Shown here piece after piece: positions 13,390-41,088 of a DNA stretch of 43,291 bases. The stretch is taken from positions 1 to 43,291 of the forward strand of contig JAFZQT010000018.1 of assembly GCA_017620235.1 (NCBI GenBank). Reading direction: 5' to 3'. Source of the DNA: Butyrivibrio sp. Lineage in GTDB: Bacteria; Bacillota; Clostridia; Lachnospirales; Lachnospiraceae. The notes beneath the pieces were generated by a model that was not told the DNA's origin, made no database searches, and was given only the letters and a program-made list of their open reading frames with translations. Positions within the stretch are counted from its first letter, which is position 1. Each line of letters begins with the position of its first letter. The translations under genes and the position numbers were made by a program.

Positions 13390-13417
13390 TTGATTTTTCG
13401 AAACCATATGTTATTCT
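13390..13417 (+). promoter_or_regulatory. Promoter of the secreted Ig-like protein gene
   Basis: TTGATT (13390-13395), 16 bases, TATTCT (13412-13417), followed by GGAGGAG at 13457-13463 and the ATG at 13471. Confidence 0.55.
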
Positions 13418-13470
13418 TAGTATATTGTACTTACAATACCAACCAAAAAATATATTGGAGGAGAAATTAC

Positions 13471-14598
13471 ATGAAGAAAAGTTACTCATTATTAGGCTGT
13501 CTTGCCCTATCTCTGGTATTAGCACTGGTATTTTCTTGCAAACCGGTAAGGGCTGCCGAACCAACAACAATCAACCTTAGCGACCTCGAAGAAGGTCAAA
13601 AATTGGAAATCACAGAGGACAGTATTCTAAATCTTGACACAGATAAGACTCTTTCTGAGCTTACCGTAAACGATTGTGAACTGACCATAAACGGAACAGC
13701 AACTCTTACTATCAACGGTAGCTATCCAAAAGGTCTATACGGTTCCGGAAAAATAACTATGAATAGCGGTTCACTGGTATCAAATTACTTTGAGCTTGCA
13801 AAATTTGAACTAAACGATGGCACATTCAAACCTAACAACGTTTTTGTTTCTGACGATAACGGTTATTTTACTCTCAATGGGGGATATTTTTGCCCAAGAA
13901 ATATAATGTACTATGGAAAAAATGCATCATTAAATATAAACGGAGGTCATCTTGAATCAGACGAGAGTATCAATAGTACAAAAATCAATATAAGCGAAAA
14001 AATGTTTATTGTTGAACCATGGAATTCTGAGATATATTCAGGTCATAAAATATACTATGGACAAGCAGTAGAGGATATTTCTCCAATGTACCCCACCTCC
14101 AACTGTGTACGCATAATCCCTAAGGACGAAGTTATTTTTTTAAATAATCTCTCGTTAAGCGACTCAGACTTAACTCTTGAAATAGGTGAAACCAAACAAT
14201 TTTCTGCTAATTTCATGCCGGAAAATGCTGCAAACAAAAAAGTTACATGGAGTAGTAGTGATCCTTCAGTCGCATACATAGATATTAATGGTCTCGTTAC
14301 TGCCTATAAATCCGGAACTGCTACAATCACTGCGACATCAGAAGACGGCGACCTTACAGCAACTTGTGATATTACTGTCGGCGGTGCAGATACTAATTCA
14401 GAAGGCTTGAAAATTGAGATTTCATATTTTGTCTGGGATAGCACGCAAAAAATTCCATATATAAAAATCTTCTACAACGGTGTTGTTATAAAAGAAGGTT
14501 TTGATTACAACTTAAGCAACGAATATAACATGGACAACGGATTATCCACAACAACAATCACAGGACTCGACAATTTCGTTCTTAAGAGCAACAAATAA
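13471..14598 (+). CDS. Secreted surface protein with beta-repeat region and Big_2 domain
   Basis: A 375-residue exported protein. Residues 1-27 are a signal peptide (MKKSYSLLGCLALSLVLA, then FSCKPVRA before AEP). The Cys could be lipidated, but Phe at -2 makes the lipobox poor, so signal peptidase I cleavage after VRA is as likely. Residues 30-190 contain repeated short strands with NGG/NGT turns (LTINGTATLTINGS, FTLNGGYF, LNINGGHLE), suggesting a beta-helix. Residues 220-305 are a bacterial Ig-like group 2 domain (LEIGETKQFSANFMPENAAN, VTWSSSDPSVAYID, SGTATITATS). The last 60 residues end in a strand pattern (GFDYNLSN, TTTITGLDNF) common in Lachnospiraceae surface proteins. Function is unknown; adhesion or wall association is typical. 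It is monocistronic, with GGAGGAG seven bases before the ATG. Confidence 0.85.
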   Translation: MKKSYSLLGCLALSLVLALVFSCKPVRAAEPTTINLSDLEEGQKLEITEDSILNLDTDKTLSELTVNDCELTINGTATLTINGSYPKGLYGSGKITMNSGSLVSNYFELAKFELNDGTFKPNNVFVSDDNGYFTLNGGYFCPRNIMYYGKNASLNINGGHLESDESINSTKINISEKMFIVEPWNSEIYSGHKIYYGQAVEDISPMYPTSNCVRIIPKDEVIFLNNLSLSDSDLTLEIGETKQFSANFMPENAANKKVTWSSSDPSVAYIDINGLVTAYKSGTATITATSEDGDLTATCDITVGGADTNSEGLKIEISYFVWDSTQKIPYIKIFYNGVVIKEGFDYNLSNEYNMDNGLSTTTITGLDNFVLKSNK

Positions 14599-35583: not shown

Positions 35584-35596
35584 ACAAACATAATAA

Positions 35597-35636
35597 ATGC
35601 AGGAGAAAAAGATAATTCCTTTTCTCCTGCATTTTT
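35597..35636. terminator. Bidirectional terminator between mecA and the CotH gene
   Basis: ATGCAGGAGAAAA pairs with TTTTCTCCTGCAT, followed by TTTTTG on the plus strand; the minus strand also continues into a T-rich stretch (TTTATTATG). Confidence 0.92.
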
Positions 35637-35650
35637 GTTACAGATGTGTT

Positions 35651-37477
35651 TTAACCATCCTCATAAGCATTATCATCTTTTTGCTCGCCGGGTCTGTGCC
35701 CATCCGGGCCTTCGCCGCCTTTGCCCATATCAAACTCTCCCATAACTTTAACATCGATATCGGAAGCATCAACAAGACTGGATGAGTCTTGCTTCTGTCC
35801 TTCATCAGTTGACGGTATTGTTCCGTCAAGCTGACCTGATATGCTCTCCGCACGAAGTTTTATAACCTTATTCAGCATTTCTGCTGCCGCATCATACTCC
35901 TCATAGTTATAGAAAGCTGTAGGATCTTTTTCTACCAAAGTATCGATCTGGCTTCTAATTCTCTGATACACTTCATCAAAGCGTCCGCCGTTTACGTATT
36001 CATCGACAAGCTGTCTCAAATACTCGTGATACTTCTCAAGGTAAGTCTCATTCTCAAGTAGCGCATCAAAGAAGTCTGTTCCGTCAAACGGTGTATCTAT
36101 GGCATCATTGATCATCTCTGTAGCTCCGCCTGATCTGCCCATGGACATTCCTCCAAGAGAAAGATTGTAATCCCAAGGGAAAATATTGAGCCGGCCATCC
36201 GATTCATAGAGATAATAATTGTGTGACATATTTCCCGACAGACTGTCCATATTTACAGAAAATGTATGTACTGCCATATATTTAAGGATATTGTCAATAT
36301 CAAGGTATTTCTCGAGATCATTTCCGCTATTTACATTCTTGATTGCTTCAACAACTCTCTTTTTATCCGCTTTACCCGATCCAAGAATATCTCCATCCCA
36401 AATCGTAGAATAACTGTCGAGATCGTCATCCGAATAATTCAGATTTGAACCGTTACCGCCCATTGGAGGTCCGCCCGGTCCACCTTCACCGGGGCCTCCT
36501 CCGGGAGGTACGTTCTTCGCAAAGTCTTCTCCATCCGGTGGTCCTCCGTTTCCAAAACTGCCTCCATTAGGAGGTCCATCTACACCTTCAGGCTTTCCTT
36601 CTTCCGGATCAGAATCCGAGTCTGGGGGTATATTGCTCGGATCGAAATTCCCATCCGGTGGTCCGCCTTTCCCAAAATCACCTCCACCGGGAGGCGCTCC
36701 TTTTCCGAAGTCACCTCCACCGGGTGGATCGCCTTTGCCAAAATCAAAATCTGCACCCTCGGGCATGTCTTCCGGATTAGGGAAGTCACTCGGGAAGTCG
36801 CCGGGCTTCTTATCTCCATTCTTTCCGTCTCCGCCTCCCATTTCCATGCTGTCAGGTTTGTACAGGTTCCCCTTCTGGGTACCATAGTTTCTCAGCAAGA
36901 AGCTCTCCTCAACCGCCTCAAGTGCAAGATAAACGCCCTTGTACTCGCCATTTAAAGACACTTCCGCATAATTGTATAGCGATGCATCAACACCAAGATA
37001 TTGGAACATGTCATATATAACAGCCTCTTTCATATTGGTTGCATCCGCATAATTATTGTTTAATATCAGCTTATCAAGTCCATAGCAGGTCTGCCCTTCC
37101 TCAAACTGATCAAATTCAAGCTTTAAACTAAATCTGTCAGTTTCATCATTCATCGCGATCGATGAAAGGCTTGTGTTTCCTTTCGGTCGAATTCCGACAT
37201 TTTTAACCGTCTCCCCATTTATAACAACATCACAGGAATAATATTCTTCGGACATGGCATTGGAAAGCATCTTTTCCCACTCATCCTCGTCCATCTTAAT
37301 ATCAATACTGATCACTTCATTAGTATTAAAAAGCTCAGTCTCATATTCTTGATTTACAGCCTGTCCTCCCAGATGTTCTGTCAACCTGTCAGAATAAGCC
37401 ATGGCAAGAAAGCACAGTACAACTGCTACAGCCATGATCCCGATAACAATCTTCGATATATATTTATTTGTTATCAT
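35651..37477 (-). CDS. CotH-family kinase, membrane-anchored, extracellular
   Basis: A 608-residue protein. Residues 8-27 are a membrane anchor, the rest is outside. The CotH domain starts near residue 50 (EVISIDIKMDEDEWEKML), continues with VGIRPKGNTSLSSIAM, YGLDKLILNNNYADATNMKE and GVYLALEAVEESFLLR, and includes the probable metal-binding Asp in FPWDYNLSLGGMSMG near 435. Residues 212-342, inside the domain, are a Gly/Pro/Asp-rich insert with repeats of PPGGGDFGKG. CotH of Bacillus is an atypical kinase that phosphorylates coat proteins with ATP. Here the gene follows DUF4956 (27 bases) and VTC (further up) in one operon, pointing to a phosphate-linked surface role. The C-terminal 40 residues are charged and low complexity. 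Confidence 0.9.
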   Translation of the reverse strand: MITNKYISKIVIGIMAVAVVLCFLAMAYSDRLTEHLGGQAVNQEYETELFNTNEVISIDIKMDEDEWEKMLSNAMSEEYYSCDVVINGETVKNVGIRPKGNTSLSSIAMNDETDRFSLKLEFDQFEEGQTCYGLDKLILNNNYADATNMKEAVIYDMFQYLGVDASLYNYAEVSLNGEYKGVYLALEAVEESFLLRNYGTQKGNLYKPDSMEMGGGDGKNGDKKPGDFPSDFPNPEDMPEGADFDFGKGDPPGGGDFGKGAPPGGGDFGKGGPPDGNFDPSNIPPDSDSDPEEGKPEGVDGPPNGGSFGNGGPPDGEDFAKNVPPGGGPGEGGPGGPPMGGNGSNLNYSDDDLDSYSTIWDGDILGSGKADKKRVVEAIKNVNSGNDLEKYLDIDNILKYMAVHTFSVNMDSLSGNMSHNYYLYESDGRLNIFPWDYNLSLGGMSMGRSGGATEMINDAIDTPFDGTDFFDALLENETYLEKYHEYLRQLVDEYVNGGRFDEVYQRIRSQIDTLVEKDPTAFYNYEEYDAAAEMLNKVIKLRAESISGQLDGTIPSTDEGQKQDSSSLVDASDIDVKVMGEFDMGKGGEGPDGHRPGEQKDDNAYEDG

Positions 37478-37504
37478 GGCTCTTTCCTCCTATATACCCT
37501 GCCA

Positions 37505-38176
37505 TTAAGACATGTACTCGCCATTGAAAGTTACAAGAGTCGCCATTGATACGCCTCTGATATCTTTTACTCTGTTTACAAAGCTTGTTGTATTGTCTTT
37601 TACACGAATCTCCATAGTAAGCTCAATTCCTGCATCGCTGACTGTTTTGGATTTTACGATATACTTTCCAACCGACTTTCCTACAGTTTTAAGTATGCTT
37701 TTCTCCGTCTCCTCTTCGTCACAATTTACAATCAAAATGTAAGGAACATTAGAAAACTTGCGGTTTGCAAATACTACAAAAATAATACCAATAACCAAAG
37801 AACCGATTACTGCGAGAGGTATCATTCCGGCGCCTATCACAATACCTGCGGCAAGCGACCAGAAAAGAAATACAATCTCCATGGGCTCTTTTATCGCTGC
37901 ACGGAAACGCACGATTGAAAGAGCGCCAACCATTCCGAGGGACAGCACTACATTTGAAGTAACCGCCATGATAACTAGCGTAGTTACGAGTGCCATACCT
38001 ATCAGAGACATTGCAAAGCCTGTGGAATACATGATTCCGCTAAATGTCTTTTTATAAATAAGAAAGATAAACAGTCCGACCGCCAGGGCAAACAACAATC
38101 CCACTACGGTATCAACAACCGAGAATTCTATTACACTCTCCAAGAAACTTGATTTAAAAATATCACTGAAATTCAT
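37505..38176 (-). CDS. DUF4956-family membrane protein
   Basis: A 223-residue protein with about four spans (23-42, 50-72, 78-95 and 108-135). The conserved segment LGMVGALSIVRFRAAIKEPM lies in the loop near residue 85-100, and the C-terminal 80 residues form a soluble alpha/beta domain (VPYILIVNCDEEETEKSILK, GIELTMEIRVKDN). Function is unknown. The family is very often encoded beside VTC-domain proteins and CotH kinases, as here. It lies 31 bases downstream of the VTC gene and 27 bases upstream of CotH. By analogy with the eukaryotic VTC complex, it could be the membrane channel for polyphosphate; this is an inference from context. Confidence 0.85.
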   Translation of the reverse strand: MNFSDIFKSSFLESVIEFSVVDTVVGLLFALAVGLFIFLIYKKTFSGIMYSTGFAMSLIGMALVTTLVIMAVTSNVVLSLGMVGALSIVRFRAAIKEPMEIVFLFWSLAAGIVIGAGMIPLAVIGSLVIGIIFVVFANRKFSNVPYILIVNCDEEETEKSILKTVGKSVGKYIVKSKTVSDAGIELTMEIRVKDNTTSFVNRVKDIRGVSMATLVTFNGEYMS

Positions 38177-38207
38177 CGTAGATCCTCCATATAATCATTC
38201 ACAATAA

Positions 38208-38900
38208 TCAACCAAATCTTCTACATGCACCATACTTTGAGAAAGACTGCTGTCTAAGTGCCGGAATCTGTACAAGATCCTGTATTATTCCGGGCATAAA
38301 GTCGTCGTACTTAACCTCAAGTATCATATCCTCCGGCTCGTCCGTCGCACTTATATCGACAACTTTTTTTGTCAGAAAATCCTTTGTAAAAAGACTTGTT
38401 CTTATCTTTGAATCAAAGGTTACTCTCACATTTCCCGCCGGATAAATGTAAGCCTCTCTTATATAAGAGACCAGTACTCTTGGCTTTAAATATTGATAAT
38501 GCATCTTGGCATACAGCTCTTTTACCAATTCACTCTTGTGCGTCCGCATAAACTCTATGTTGCCTGCAAGGATTTTCCTACATTCCTCTTCCGTAAGTCT
38601 CGCGCTACACTTAAGACATAATTTATCGTGCTTTATCTTTTTTTCTAAAGTAATAAAAGAAAAATCATCATTGTAATACCTGATCCGAAATTTTTCTCTT
38701 TTCTGTATCCCATCAACTTTTTCTCTGAGCGCTTTGTCATCCGCGTTGTCAAAATAAATACTGCGTATCTGATATATTCCTTCTCTCGAAGCATGGGGGT
38801 CCTTACGCATGACAAGGCTCAGCCTGTTCCGCATTGCGACATAATCCGAATAGCCGATCGCATATTTCAGTTCATGCCGATAGCGTTGTTTCTGTTCCAT
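38208..38900 (-). CDS. VTC-domain polyphosphate polymerase
   Basis: A 230-residue tunnel-fold protein of the VTC family (triphosphate tunnel superfamily). Motifs that line the tunnel are all visible: RHELKYAI near 8-15, IRSIYFDN near 45, KFRIRYYND near 70, FITLEKKIKH near 82, VSYIREAYIY near 144, VRVTFDSKI near 158, MILEVKYDDF near 191 and SFSKYGACR at the end. In yeast Vtc4 the equivalent basic residues bind ATP and growing polyphosphate. No membrane span is present, so it is cytosolic; DUF4956 downstream could be its membrane partner. AGGAGAGG precedes the ATG. The sensor-kinase gene upstream is separated by a terminator. Confidence 0.92.
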   Translation of the reverse strand: MEQKQRYRHELKYAIGYSDYVAMRNRLSLVMRKDPHASREGIYQIRSIYFDNADDKALREKVDGIQKREKFRIRYYNDDFSFITLEKKIKHDKLCLKCSARLTEEECRKILAGNIEFMRTHKSELVKELYAKMHYQYLKPRVLVSYIREAYIYPAGNVRVTFDSKIRTSLFTKDFLTKKVVDISATDEPEDMILEVKYDDFMPGIIQDLVQIPALRQQSFSKYGACRRFG

Positions 38901-38960
38901 TTTGCCTCTCCTTTCTTCATTATGTTTTCTATCTTATTTGACCAACCTGAAATCTACTTG

Positions 38961-38995
38961 AAAAAAAGAAGACCTTTTTCAGATCTTCTTTTTTT
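38961..38995 (-). terminator. Terminator after the histidine kinase gene
   Basis: AAAAAAAGAAGA (38961-38972) pairs with TCTTCTTTTTTT (38984-38995); the minus-strand transcript ends in a seven-base T-run. It separates the two-component genes from the VTC operon, which therefore needs its own promoter in 38901-38960 (only weak matches seen). Confidence 0.82.
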
Positions 38996-38996
38996 A

Positions 38997-40268
38997 TTAC
39001 AAAATCACTGTTATAGTCATATCTTTTCCGTCAGGGCAGCTTGCTTCTATCGTACCTCCATGTGCCTCCGCCACAGCTTTGGCAATCGCAAGCCCTATTC
39101 CGCTTCCTCCCGATTCCGAACTCCTTGATTCATCAGGTCTGTAGAAGCGGTCAAATAATTTTTCTTCATCCGGAGGCGTTTCATAATTACATTTATTAAA
39201 TACCTCCAAAACTGTATGCGACTTTTTCTTTGTAAGGCTGAGCCTGATCTCGCTCTCAGGACTTGAATATCTCACCGCATTGTCCAAAAGGACCGACACC
39301 ATCTGCTCCATTGCTGCCTTATCTCCCAATATCGCAATATCTTCACCGATGTTTGTATTAAGAGTTTTTCCGCTCGCTTTGATCTGCGGCTGATACACTT
39401 CAACAACTTCCCACAACATATCACTCAAGGAAAAATGTTCTTTTTCATTAAACGGCGTAGCCTCATCCATCTTAGAAAGCGCTACCATCTCATGTACAAG
39501 TTTGGATAACCGTCCTATCTGATTCTTAATATTATCCGTCCACTCGTCCTCACCATGCTCCATAGTCAGCACCTCAAGGCTTGTGGAAATGGAAGTGATC
39601 GGTGTCTTAAGCTCATGCCCCGCATCTGTGATAAACTGTTTCTGCATCTCAACATTTCGAACTATCGGCTTGATCGCCTTTCCGGAAAAGAGATATACAA
39701 GCGGAAACAGCGCTATAAGACTTATCTCCGCAATTATTATCGTCAATAAACGAAGCGATCGCATATACTGAATCTCTCTTATCGAATTCAGAAAAACCAC
39801 TACTCTTCTTCCGTTGATCTTAGTATTAAGGTAGCGATATTCCTTATAGTATCCGTGCGTTTTGCCTTTTTTTAATATCTGCTGCGCGTAATTTATAGCC
39901 TCTTTCTCATCAATAGATGCAATAAAATCCGTAAATGCCGATGAAGCAGTACCGTCCTCCCTAAATCTGACAATAAAAAATCTCGTCATATAGTTTGCTT
40001 CAACATCGGGCAATTCTCTAAACGAAGGAGGCCCATTGTCTCCCGGCCCGGGCCCCGGGCCCTGCCCCTGTCCCGGTTTGTCAGGCGGTCTCTCACCCGG
40101 CGCTTCCCTCTCTTCAAAGCCCGCAATATAGGTAAGAGTTTTATCGGCGCGCTTTGTTTCAACGCAGTAATTTACGATATTTACCAGAACCGCAATCACA
40201 ACAATAACTGAAAAAAAGGCGAGCATGGCTGCACAAATAACTCGCCGGCGCATCTTTTTTAGCATCAC
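38997..40268 (-). CDS. Sensor histidine kinase
   Basis: A 423-residue two-span kinase. Residues 12-32 and about 168-190 are membrane segments flanking an extracellular sensor region that includes a Gly/Pro-rich stretch (DKPGQGQGPGPGPGDNGPP, near 65). The H-box is FITDAGHELKTPITSISTSL near 217, the N-box DNAVRYSSPESEI near 325 and the G-box GSGIGLAIAKAVAEAHGG near 395. There is no clear HAMP domain. It overlaps the response regulator by four bases (ATGA) and is translated with it. The signal is unknown; the Gly/Pro-rich region recalls the insert in the nearby CotH protein. The downstream VTC-DUF4956-CotH operon is its likely target. Confidence 0.95.
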   Translation of the reverse strand: MMLKKMRRRVICAAMLAFFSVIVVIAVLVNIVNYCVETKRADKTLTYIAGFEEREAPGERPPDKPGQGQGPGPGPGDNGPPSFRELPDVEANYMTRFFIVRFREDGTASSAFTDFIASIDEKEAINYAQQILKKGKTHGYYKEYRYLNTKINGRRVVVFLNSIREIQYMRSLRLLTIIIAEISLIALFPLVYLFSGKAIKPIVRNVEMQKQFITDAGHELKTPITSISTSLEVLTMEHGEDEWTDNIKNQIGRLSKLVHEMVALSKMDEATPFNEKEHFSLSDMLWEVVEVYQPQIKASGKTLNTNIGEDIAILGDKAAMEQMVSVLLDNAVRYSSPESEIRLSLTKKKSHTVLEVFNKCNYETPPDEEKLFDRFYRPDESRSSESGGSGIGLAIAKAVAEAHGGTIEASCPDGKDMTITVIL

Positions 40269-40936
40269 GTCACCTCCAGCGAGTAGCCCGCTCCCCTTAT
40301 TGTCTTTATTTCTACATTTGCATCTAATTCGCGCAGTTTTTTCCTGACATATCCAATGTGTGTCCAGACAACATCTATGTCAGAATCCGAATCGCAGCCC
40401 CATATCTTTTCCATCAAATGATCTGTGGAAAAAACATGCTTGGGATGCAATACAAAGAGCTCCATAAGCTGATATTCCTTGTTCGTAAGGCTTATGCTCT
40501 TATCATCCACGCGCATTTCATATTTATTTCCATCAAGCAAAAGATTCCCCGCCTGCATTTCACGTGCAGAATAATTCTCGCTTCTGCGTCCAAGCGCCTT
40601 TATCCTGGCAATAAGCTCACTCGTTGCAAAAGGCTTTGGCAGATAATCATCCGCTCCCGCTTCAAGCCCGGCAACTCTGTCCTCTATCTCAGACTTTGCA
40701 GTCAGCATAAGAACAGGTGTTGAGATCTGTTCTCTTCGCATCTTGGTCAGAACTTCCAGTCCGTTCATTCCGGGCATCATGATATCAAGTACAATAACCT
40801 CGTATGAACCCGAAGAAATGTAGTTCCACGCGTCATTGCCGTTATGAACAATATCAACCGAATATTTTGCTTTTTCAAGCAATACCTTCAAAGCCTTTGC
40901 TGTTGCCACTTCATCTTCTGCAATCAAAATCCGCAT
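40265..40936 (-). CDS. OmpR-family response regulator
   Basis: A 223-residue regulator. The receiver domain starts MRILIAEDEVATAKALKVLL with the acidic pair, phosphorylation Asp in VIVLDIMMPGMNG near 51, Thr in VLMLTAKSE near 79 and Lys in YLPKPFATSEL near 101. The C-terminal winged helix (130-223) has SLTNKEYQLMELFVLHPKHV and ends TIRGAGYSLEV. The frame is open to 41005, but the ATG at 40934-40936 has AGGAGAG six bases upstream and gives the standard start. It forms a pair with the overlapping sensor kinase. A perfect dyad (40969-40995) spans the promoter region. Confidence 0.96.
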   Translation of the reverse strand: MRILIAEDEVATAKALKVLLEKAKYSVDIVHNGNDAWNYISSGSYEVIVLDIMMPGMNGLEVLTKMRREQISTPVLMLTAKSEIEDRVAGLEAGADDYLPKPFATSELIARIKALGRRSENYSAREMQAGNLLLDGNKYEMRVDDKSISLTNKEYQLMELFVLHPKHVFSTDHLMEKIWGCDSDSDIDVVWTHIGYVRKKLRELDANVEIKTIRGAGYSLEVT

Positions 40937-40960
40937 TGTACGCTCTCCTTTTAAGTACAC

Positions 40961-40995
40961 AATATATACATTCTTGAACATAAAGTTCAAGAATG
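40961..40995 (-). promoter_or_regulatory. Response-regulator promoter with overlapping 11-bp dyad
   Basis: CATTCTTGAAC (40969-40979), ATAAA, GTTCAAGAATG (40985-40995) is a perfect inverted repeat. On the minus strand its TTGAAC can serve as -35, with TATATT (40961-40966) 18 bases on as -10, so a bound dimer would block or modulate transcription. Confidence 0.6.
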
Positions 40996-41088
40996 CATCA
41001 ACCAAGCCAATTTGAATCGACTTTGTCGATGAGGCTTGGTTGACTCTTGAATCACTTTCTCACGAAATCCGCAGCTGGTGCGGATTTC
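40986..41088 (-). other. Two stem-loops upstream of the response-regulator promoter
   Basis: TCAACCAAGCC (40998-41008) pairs with GGCTTGGTTGA (41033-41043), extended by TTCAAGA/TCTTGAA (40986-40992 and 41045-41051). GAAATCCGCA (41064-41073) pairs with TGCGGATTTC (41079-41088). Neither has a good T-run. The TTCAAGA arm is shared with the promoter dyad, so the two structures exclude each other. Confidence 0.6.

Follow-up and report, generated by a model that had tools for sequence, protein, structure and literature searches.

VTC-DUF4956 and an apparently exchangeable anchored surface protein: a putative membrane polyphosphate module in a rumen Butyrivibrio

A five-gene locus and its question

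From what source an extracellular kinase draws its energy, and whether bacteria possess a dedicated machine for exporting polyphosphate, are two questions touched by a five-gene locus of a rumen bacterium, Butyrivibrio sp. The locus lies on contig JAFZQT010000018.1 of assembly GCA_017620235.1, analysed as a whole from position 1 to 43,291 (the window, 43,291 nucleotides), which is one contig of a 2.70 Mb genome that is 86.4% complete. According to the list of open reading frames (ORFs) and Pfam, it carries, in this order and all on the minus strand, a response regulator, a histidine kinase, a VTC domain protein, a DUF4956 membrane protein and a CotH-family kinase. Across genomes, VTC and DUF4956 form a near-obligate pair, and in the window's subfamily the gene that follows encodes CotH or Cthe_2159 on a common N-terminal anchor. 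The module's probable role is polyphosphate synthesis at the membrane, coupled to the anchored surface protein; the reading favoured here, with moderate confidence, is a polyphosphate module that is bound to the membrane and carries a docked, exchangeable surface effector. The features of the locus are:

40265-40936, minus strand: OmpR-type response regulator, first gene of the putative unit (Response_reg/Trans_reg_C)
38997-40268, minus strand: sensor histidine kinase (HisKA/HATPase_c, two transmembrane segments)
38208-38900, minus strand: VTC domain protein of 230 amino acids, a predicted polyphosphate polymerase (Pfam, 4.1e-40)
37505-38176, minus strand: DUF4956 membrane protein (Pfam, 5.5e-12)
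35651-37477, minus strand: membrane-anchored CotH-family kinase of 608 amino acids (Pfam, 1.7e-61)
37370-37477, minus strand: N-terminal membrane anchor of CotH, its first 36 amino acids (anchor profile)
35595-35634, minus strand: terminator-like hairpin of 18 pairs, directly 3' of CotH (pattern match)

Gaps of 96, 31 and 27 nucleotides (nt) separate the histidine kinase from VTC, VTC from DUF4956 and DUF4956 from CotH, respectively, and the histidine kinase and response regulator overlap by 4 nt. This layout, with its coordinates, the two short gaps and the overlapping pair, had been described in an earlier reading of the letters of the window (the sequence-only reading), and the ORF list and Pfam bear it out.

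Association of VTC, DUF4956 and CotH across genomes

The main sample comprised 61 genomes, the window's own and 60 relatives, with VTC present in 47. Within it, 96 of 99 VTC matches and, equally, 96 of 99 DUF4956 matches have a same-strand partner no farther than 1.5 kb away. All six unpaired matches are partial: three begin in the first 130 bases of a contig, and one, in G025, has two stop codons. Additionally, of the 103 CotH genes, 55 share the strand of a VTC gene no more than 4 kb away, a figure that uniform placement in genomes of 3.3 Mb would put at about 0.35. Both counts rule out random association of the three families, and the neighbourhood search that the sequence-only reading had proposed thus returns a non-random result.

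A second set held 142 VTC genes, drawn from 60 fetched regions, one of which holds two such genes, from 80 further loci and from the window, with at least two duplicates; the 80 were the top-ranking loci among 584, which gives close relatives of the window more than their share, and locus genes were assigned by scoring all ORFs. DUF4956 is adjacent in 141 of the 142 and CotH lies within 3.5 kb in 89, so that the claimed pairing of a VTC-type polymerase domain with a DUF4956 partner is almost obligate in both samples. No fused VTC-DUF4956 gene was seen among the loci. A wider draw of 199 genomes of the phylum, the window's own included, contained VTC in 27; the 28 loci read there with 1.5 kb flanks (L199-L226, one genome already used) have DUF4956 at 26 and CotH (16) or Cthe_2159 (6) at 22. 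Among 14 named control genomes, the same three were positive for both VTC and DUF4956. The genome of Corynebacterium glutamicum gives matches to all three families, CotH as well as VTC and DUF4956. The module is found in many Clostridia and related bacteria, some subfamilies standing beside matrix-polysaccharide synthases. In PMC10434189, a table of an iron-dependent stimulon includes BT3498-99 of Bacteroides thetaiotaomicron, where DUF4956 is next to DUF2490.

An exchangeable third gene on a shared anchor

At 113 loci DUF4956 is directly followed by a third gene of 250 or more amino acids, which encodes CotH in 72, Cthe_2159 (PF14262) in 29 and other proteins in 12; 6 of the Cthe_2159 calls were confirmed by Pfam and 23 were made with a profile built from those six. 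According to PMC6712302, Cthe_2159 proteins have a beta-helix structure and bind celluloses and polygalacturonic acid. Elsewhere in the window, a Big_2 domain protein (13390-14598) gives a weak, sub-cut-off Cthe_2159 match.

An anchor profile was built exclusively from residues 1-36 of window-type CotH, with the W-type starts MLATT (L075, L091) left out. This CotH-only profile finds 24 of the 29 third-slot Cthe_2159 proteins at E<1e-5, and of 3915 ORFs the best-scoring one that is not in the third slot has E 0.018; below that value, besides the labelled third-slot proteins, stand four short ORFs in third position (L096, L113, L153, L166), three of which end at a contig end. Such selectivity rules out generic transmembrane similarity as the source of the likeness. 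Anchor identity averages 0.29 between CotH and Cthe_2159, 0.32 within CotH and 0.56 within Cthe_2159, and is 0.48 between the 12 CotH that start with MST or MLT and Cthe_2159.

A tree of VTC plus DUF4956 covered 135 of the 142 loci, leaving out L100 and L105 as duplicates of L043 and L037, and L059, L074, L150, L159 and L163 for want of a full-length pair. All anchor-bearing loci on it (80/80) fall in one clade of 88 with a support of 0.998; the remaining eight have no labelled third gene, some through a contig end. Since the ectodomain changes only 4 times within this clade (at least 3 with nodes below 0.8 collapsed), whereas shuffled labels give a mean of 21 and a lowest value of 15, ectodomain swaps are, on this tree, few and mostly inherited. 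Whereas the ectodomain changes, the anchor tracks the subfamily of VTC-DUF4956. This pattern is most simply read as binding of the anchor to the VTC-DUF4956 pair, and the presence of unrelated CotH and Cthe_2159 ectodomains on one anchor suggests an exchangeable surface effector. What is new here is the third gene, CotH or Cthe_2159, with a common N-terminal anchor in the window's subfamily; no mention of the shared anchor was found in the literature, in which no search was aimed at the anchor. The common anchor also offers a direct, testable handle on complex membership.

The VTC protein and its membrane partner

The VTC protein passes PF09359 (138.2 bits against a cut-off of 23), and its domain spans residues 8-226 of 230; topology prediction finds no transmembrane segment in it, and neither it nor DUF4956 has any further Pfam domain. 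Built from 33 sequences (the window's VTC and those of the fetched regions, made non-redundant at 70%), a profile matches Vtc4 structures (3g3q, 2.4e-21), and all nine solved sequences that it matches are Vtc4, Vtc3 and Vtc2. The equivalents of Vtc4 R196, K200, R264, R266, K281, K294, Y359, R361, R373, E426, K428 and K458 are invariant in 33/33 aligned VTC, and that of S457 is almost invariant; the earlier claim of "all tunnel motifs" therefore holds for these 12 positions and nearly for S457, but not for K455, whose equivalent is not kept.

R264, R266 and E426 were mutated to inactivate Vtc4 (PMC9911596), and Lys458, to which the invariant K222 of the window corresponds, is named catalytic in PMC4641920. 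The latter source also describes four basic exit-path residues of Vtc4 that are Glu in AtTTM3; at these positions, in a register that is partly inferred (chiefly for Glu-90), the window protein has the basic R8, K97 and K197 and the acidic E10. The three basic residues speak for a polymerase without proving one. With the yeast Vtc4/Vtc3/Vtc1 complex the window set shares the Vtc4 tunnel domain and catalytic residues, the membrane partner being indicated here by gene pairing. It differs in its partners, which are an MgtC-like DUF4956 and an anchored surface protein, and Pfam finds in VTC and DUF4956 neither the SPX domain nor the Vtc1-type transmembrane domain of a eukaryotic-type complex.

DUF4956 has five predicted hydrophobic segments (23-41, 54-72, 77-95, 99-117 and 118-136) followed by a soluble C-terminal domain, and G84, R90, F91, R92 and G111 are invariant in an alignment of 28 sequences. 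Compared by hhalign with MgtC (12 sequences used of 20 loci fetched, same order), it gives a probability of 97% and E 1.2e-10 over 196 columns, the likeness extending over the membrane part and the C-terminal domain. The window protein nevertheless stands far below the MgtC/SapB cut-off of NCBIfam (26.4 bits against 214), has no PF02308 match at E<=0.001, and is set apart by a distinct GALSIVRFR motif and by its pairing with VTC; some relatives reach PF02308 weakly, and G017:C230 alone passes (32.3 against 31.4 bits). By these profile comparisons, DUF4956 is a remote relative of MgtC/SapB, not a member of the family. No function of DUF4956 is stated in the accessible parts of the literature found to mention the family.

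Proposed mechanism

From the gene pairing, the catalytic residues, the predicted topology and the shared anchor, we infer a mechanism that comprises polymerase activity, complex formation, export, a surface target and regulation. VTC, in the cytosol, would polymerise phosphate from ATP into polyphosphate; the chain would probably pass through, or be gated by, the MgtC-like DUF4956, the near-obligate membrane partner of VTC; a surface protein with one membrane span would dock on VTC-DUF4956 via the conserved N-terminal anchor; and the exchangeable ectodomain, CotH here and the Cthe_2159 beta-helix in relatives, would handle the product or modify the cell surface. The adjacent two-component system would regulate the module.

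Several observations weigh against this mechanism. Among solved structures, Vtc1 included, none matched DUF4956 significantly (nothing at E<=1, or weak unrelated matches). The anchor is absent from 13 of the 72 CotH and 5 of the 29 Cthe_2159 proteins in the third slot, all in other subfamilies, and those five Cthe_2159 proteins resemble lipoproteins by eye. Anchor sharing could come from within-gene recombination, a way in which a swap could originate; that the likeness was kept afterwards suggests a need for it. By register, E10 of VTC is one acidic-patch Glu of the TTM hydrolases. The window's own genome also carries a PPK1 gene, which rules out VTC as its sole polyphosphate maker.

The interpretation offered in the sequence-only reading, in which CotH uses polyphosphate or a related donor to phosphorylate surface proteins, survives in part. 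The pairing, an anchored CotH predicted to face outward and the linked two-component system stand, while phosphorylation as the sole purpose is weakened: 24 loci hold an anchored Cthe_2159 in the kinase's slot, and VTC-DUF4956 therefore does not need the kinase. We regard as quite unlikely a sharper version of the proposal, in which VTC-DUF4956 would be a synthesis-coupled polyphosphate exporter on an MgtC-like fold that hands the chain to a docked plug-in ectodomain; in the CotH version polyphosphate would itself be the donor, or would become attached, and the cell would thereby phosphorylate its surface with no need for ATP outside.

Glycan-synthase contexts

The alternative that survives best, though it is unlikely, is an accessory role in exopolysaccharide production. 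CotH would then be a kinase of glycans or of glycan machinery, VTC-DUF4956 would supply phosphate or sense the energy state, export of free polyphosphate would not be the point, and the window copy would have as its substrate a polymer produced by genes at another locus. PilZ-GT2, AlgX-like and MBOAT genes are indeed present in the window's own genome, which has four VTC loci: L034 reads VTC-DUF4956-CotH-MBOAT-AlgX-like-GT2 with PilZ, and L035 reads FAD oxidoreductase-GT2-MBOAT-CotH-VTC-DUF4956. L033 lacks CotH beside its VTC-DUF4956, its VTC is longer and a further two kinase/regulator pairs lie close by; it groups on the tree with loci bearing lipoprotein-type Cthe_2159.

A Pel cluster with the trio occurs in the same genus. 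L083 encodes an epimerase protein, an unassigned product, DUF2194, a PelF-like glycosyltransferase, PelG, CotH, VTC, DUF4956 and DUF4832, which is the second Pel accessory group of Whitfield 2020 (PMC7112168). There, CotH, PPP, DUF4956 and DUF4832 are Pel accessory genes of Gram-positive bacteria, with the same three families contiguous and no function established, and phosphorylation regulating Pel synthesis is given by the authors as one possibility. The sequence-only reading was aware of no function described for the set, and the literature searched, which excludes most subscription papers, gave none; the set itself has been published in that work. The window copy differs in having a two-component system in front and no Pel genes found, and its subfamily in having the conserved anchor and no synthase found nearby. 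In a genome of the same taxonomic order, L057 carries a chitin-synthase-like GT2, a HEAT protein, an unassigned gene, CotH, DUF4956 and VTC; this is the layout of C. perfringens NELoc-2 (PMC2879425), in which VTC and CotH stand beside a chitin-synthase-like glycosyltransferase and a HEAT protein. L057 matches it, with DUF4956, whereas the window copy is without a synthase. CP4_0461 and CP4_0464 in that source (226 and 222 amino acids, by VTC, annotated as tubulin/FtsZ and predicted membrane) are probably DUF4956 proteins.

Synthases were sought within 5 kb by phmmer with ten Pfam-confirmed seeds (GT2, GT4, GT11, MBOAT, PelG) from other clades. Outside the window's clade, a seed relative is present at 17 of 40 full-flank loci and at 15 of 22 CotH-bearing ones; because the trio so often stands beside glycan synthases, a glycan target is possible in these other subfamilies. 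By contrast, none was found in the window's clade, at 0/49 loci with 5 kb flanks (0/88 overall), although distant synthase families could escape these seeds. This result made the exopolysaccharide alternative somewhat less likely. No glycosyltransferase was found among the 20 window proteins scanned (43 ORFs picked), and neither PelG in the window's own genome (86% complete) nor the contiguous pelDEAFG of a Pel accessory cluster was found. One single type of exopolysaccharide partner is ruled out: the contexts include Pel, PilZ-GT2, GT2-MBOAT and chitin-synthase-like ones, none of which was found in the window's clade.

The CotH kinase and the remaining alternatives

CotH passes PF08757 with 209 bits against a cut-off of 23.8 (E 1.7e-61), and its solved relative is 5jd9; a solved-structure search with the CotH of the PilZ locus gave no match. 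G100, D411 and D436 are invariant in an alignment of 29 sequences, and among third-slot CotH proteins G100, E187 and D436 are kept in 72/72, D145 in 71/72 and D411 in 71/72 with one gap. An insert rich in Gly, Pro and Asp (about 205-350) separates the two halves of the protein. One N-terminal transmembrane segment spans 10-28, and because two basic residues precede it, the N side being more positive, an outside location is predicted for the kinase domain. The earlier placing of an N-terminal anchor and an outward active-site Asp is thus borne out for the anchor and the catalytic residues, the orientation being a prediction. The Bacillus CotH spore-coat kinase (5jd9/5jda) belongs to the same family and has the same catalytic residues; the window protein is instead membrane-anchored and predicted outside, with a Gly/Pro-rich insert and Lys at the Tyr142 position.

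The strict form of the earlier model, in which exported polyphosphate is the donor with which extracellular CotH phosphorylates surface proteins, is very doubtful. The predicted outward face and the kept catalytic residues agree with it, but we know of no precedent for a polyphosphate-dependent CotH, and the kinase's slot is filled by Cthe_2159 at the 24 loci given above. In Bacillus CotH, Tyr142 and Trp245 sandwich the adenine (PMC12189002). By one alignment and an inferred one-residue chain offset (the Trp of the PWD motif being residue 246 of the printed chain), Tyr142 corresponds to window K207; this column holds Lys in 58/59 and Arg in 1/59 window-type CotH, and the Trp245 equivalent is kept in 58/59. 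If the register is right, the nucleotide pocket of window-type CotH would be altered at one position, and a non-ATP phosphate donor would stay possible because one of the two adenine-stacking positions is Lys or Arg in 59/59. Dependence on that single alignment and offset counts against the donor model, as do the 13 other CotH, 8 of which also have Lys in this column (Tyr in 1), and Y206, which adjoins K207, is invariant in 59/59 and could take over adenine stacking.

Least probable is that VTC is a triphosphatase or nucleotide sensor controlling DUF4956 as an MgtC-like regulator: tunnel enzymes show many activities (PMC4641920), and E10, the MgtC kinship of DUF4956 and the genome's own PPK1 would fit, but the solved matches of the VTC profile are Vtc4, Vtc3 and Vtc2 throughout, R8, K97 and K197 are basic, and K222 (Lys458) is invariant.

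Stretches of 40 residues with at least 45% Gly plus Pro occur in 31/59 window-type CotH, 13/24 anchor-bearing Cthe_2159 and 3/5 lipoprotein-type Cthe_2159, and in 0/13 other CotH and 15/1251 background ORFs as controls; 8/36 related sensor kinases, the window's own (38997-40268) included, also have a Gly/Pro-rich stretch. A CotH gene of the window's own genome far from VTC (L173:8082-10193) lies between ribosome-hibernation-like and thiolase-like genes, by eye, with the same neighbours at L174. Three tandem CotH genes precede VTC-DUF4956 at L051:2600-9357.

The two-component system and a plausible transcription unit

The two genes in front of VTC have the Pfam domains of an OmpR-class two-component system, HisKA/HATPase_c in the kinase and Response_reg/Trans_reg_C in the regulator. 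The kinase has two transmembrane segments and a predicted extracellular sensor with a Gly/Pro-rich loop. The regulator's best NCBIfam match is RppA (235.1 bits, under the cut-off of 250), and the other best model, RppB, is likewise sub-cut-off. A window-like sensor kinase lies within 4 kb at 32 of the 88 clade loci against 5 of 47 others, which upholds the claimed link between two-component system and module, and it stands directly upstream on the same strand at 19 clade loci against 1 elsewhere. Related sensor kinases are sometimes divergent or downstream, and none was found at most clade loci.

The start of the response regulator was taken as the ATG at 40936, which fits the domain start; the listed ORF is 40265-41005, from a TTG. 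A promoter scan gave 14 sites against 13.3 in shuffles, that is, no excess, and terminator-like hairpins number 7 in the region against 4.2 in shuffles. The hairpin after CotH likely marks the end of a transcription unit, and because the same pattern scan lists none between the histidine kinase and VTC, a single unit from the response regulator to CotH is plausible.

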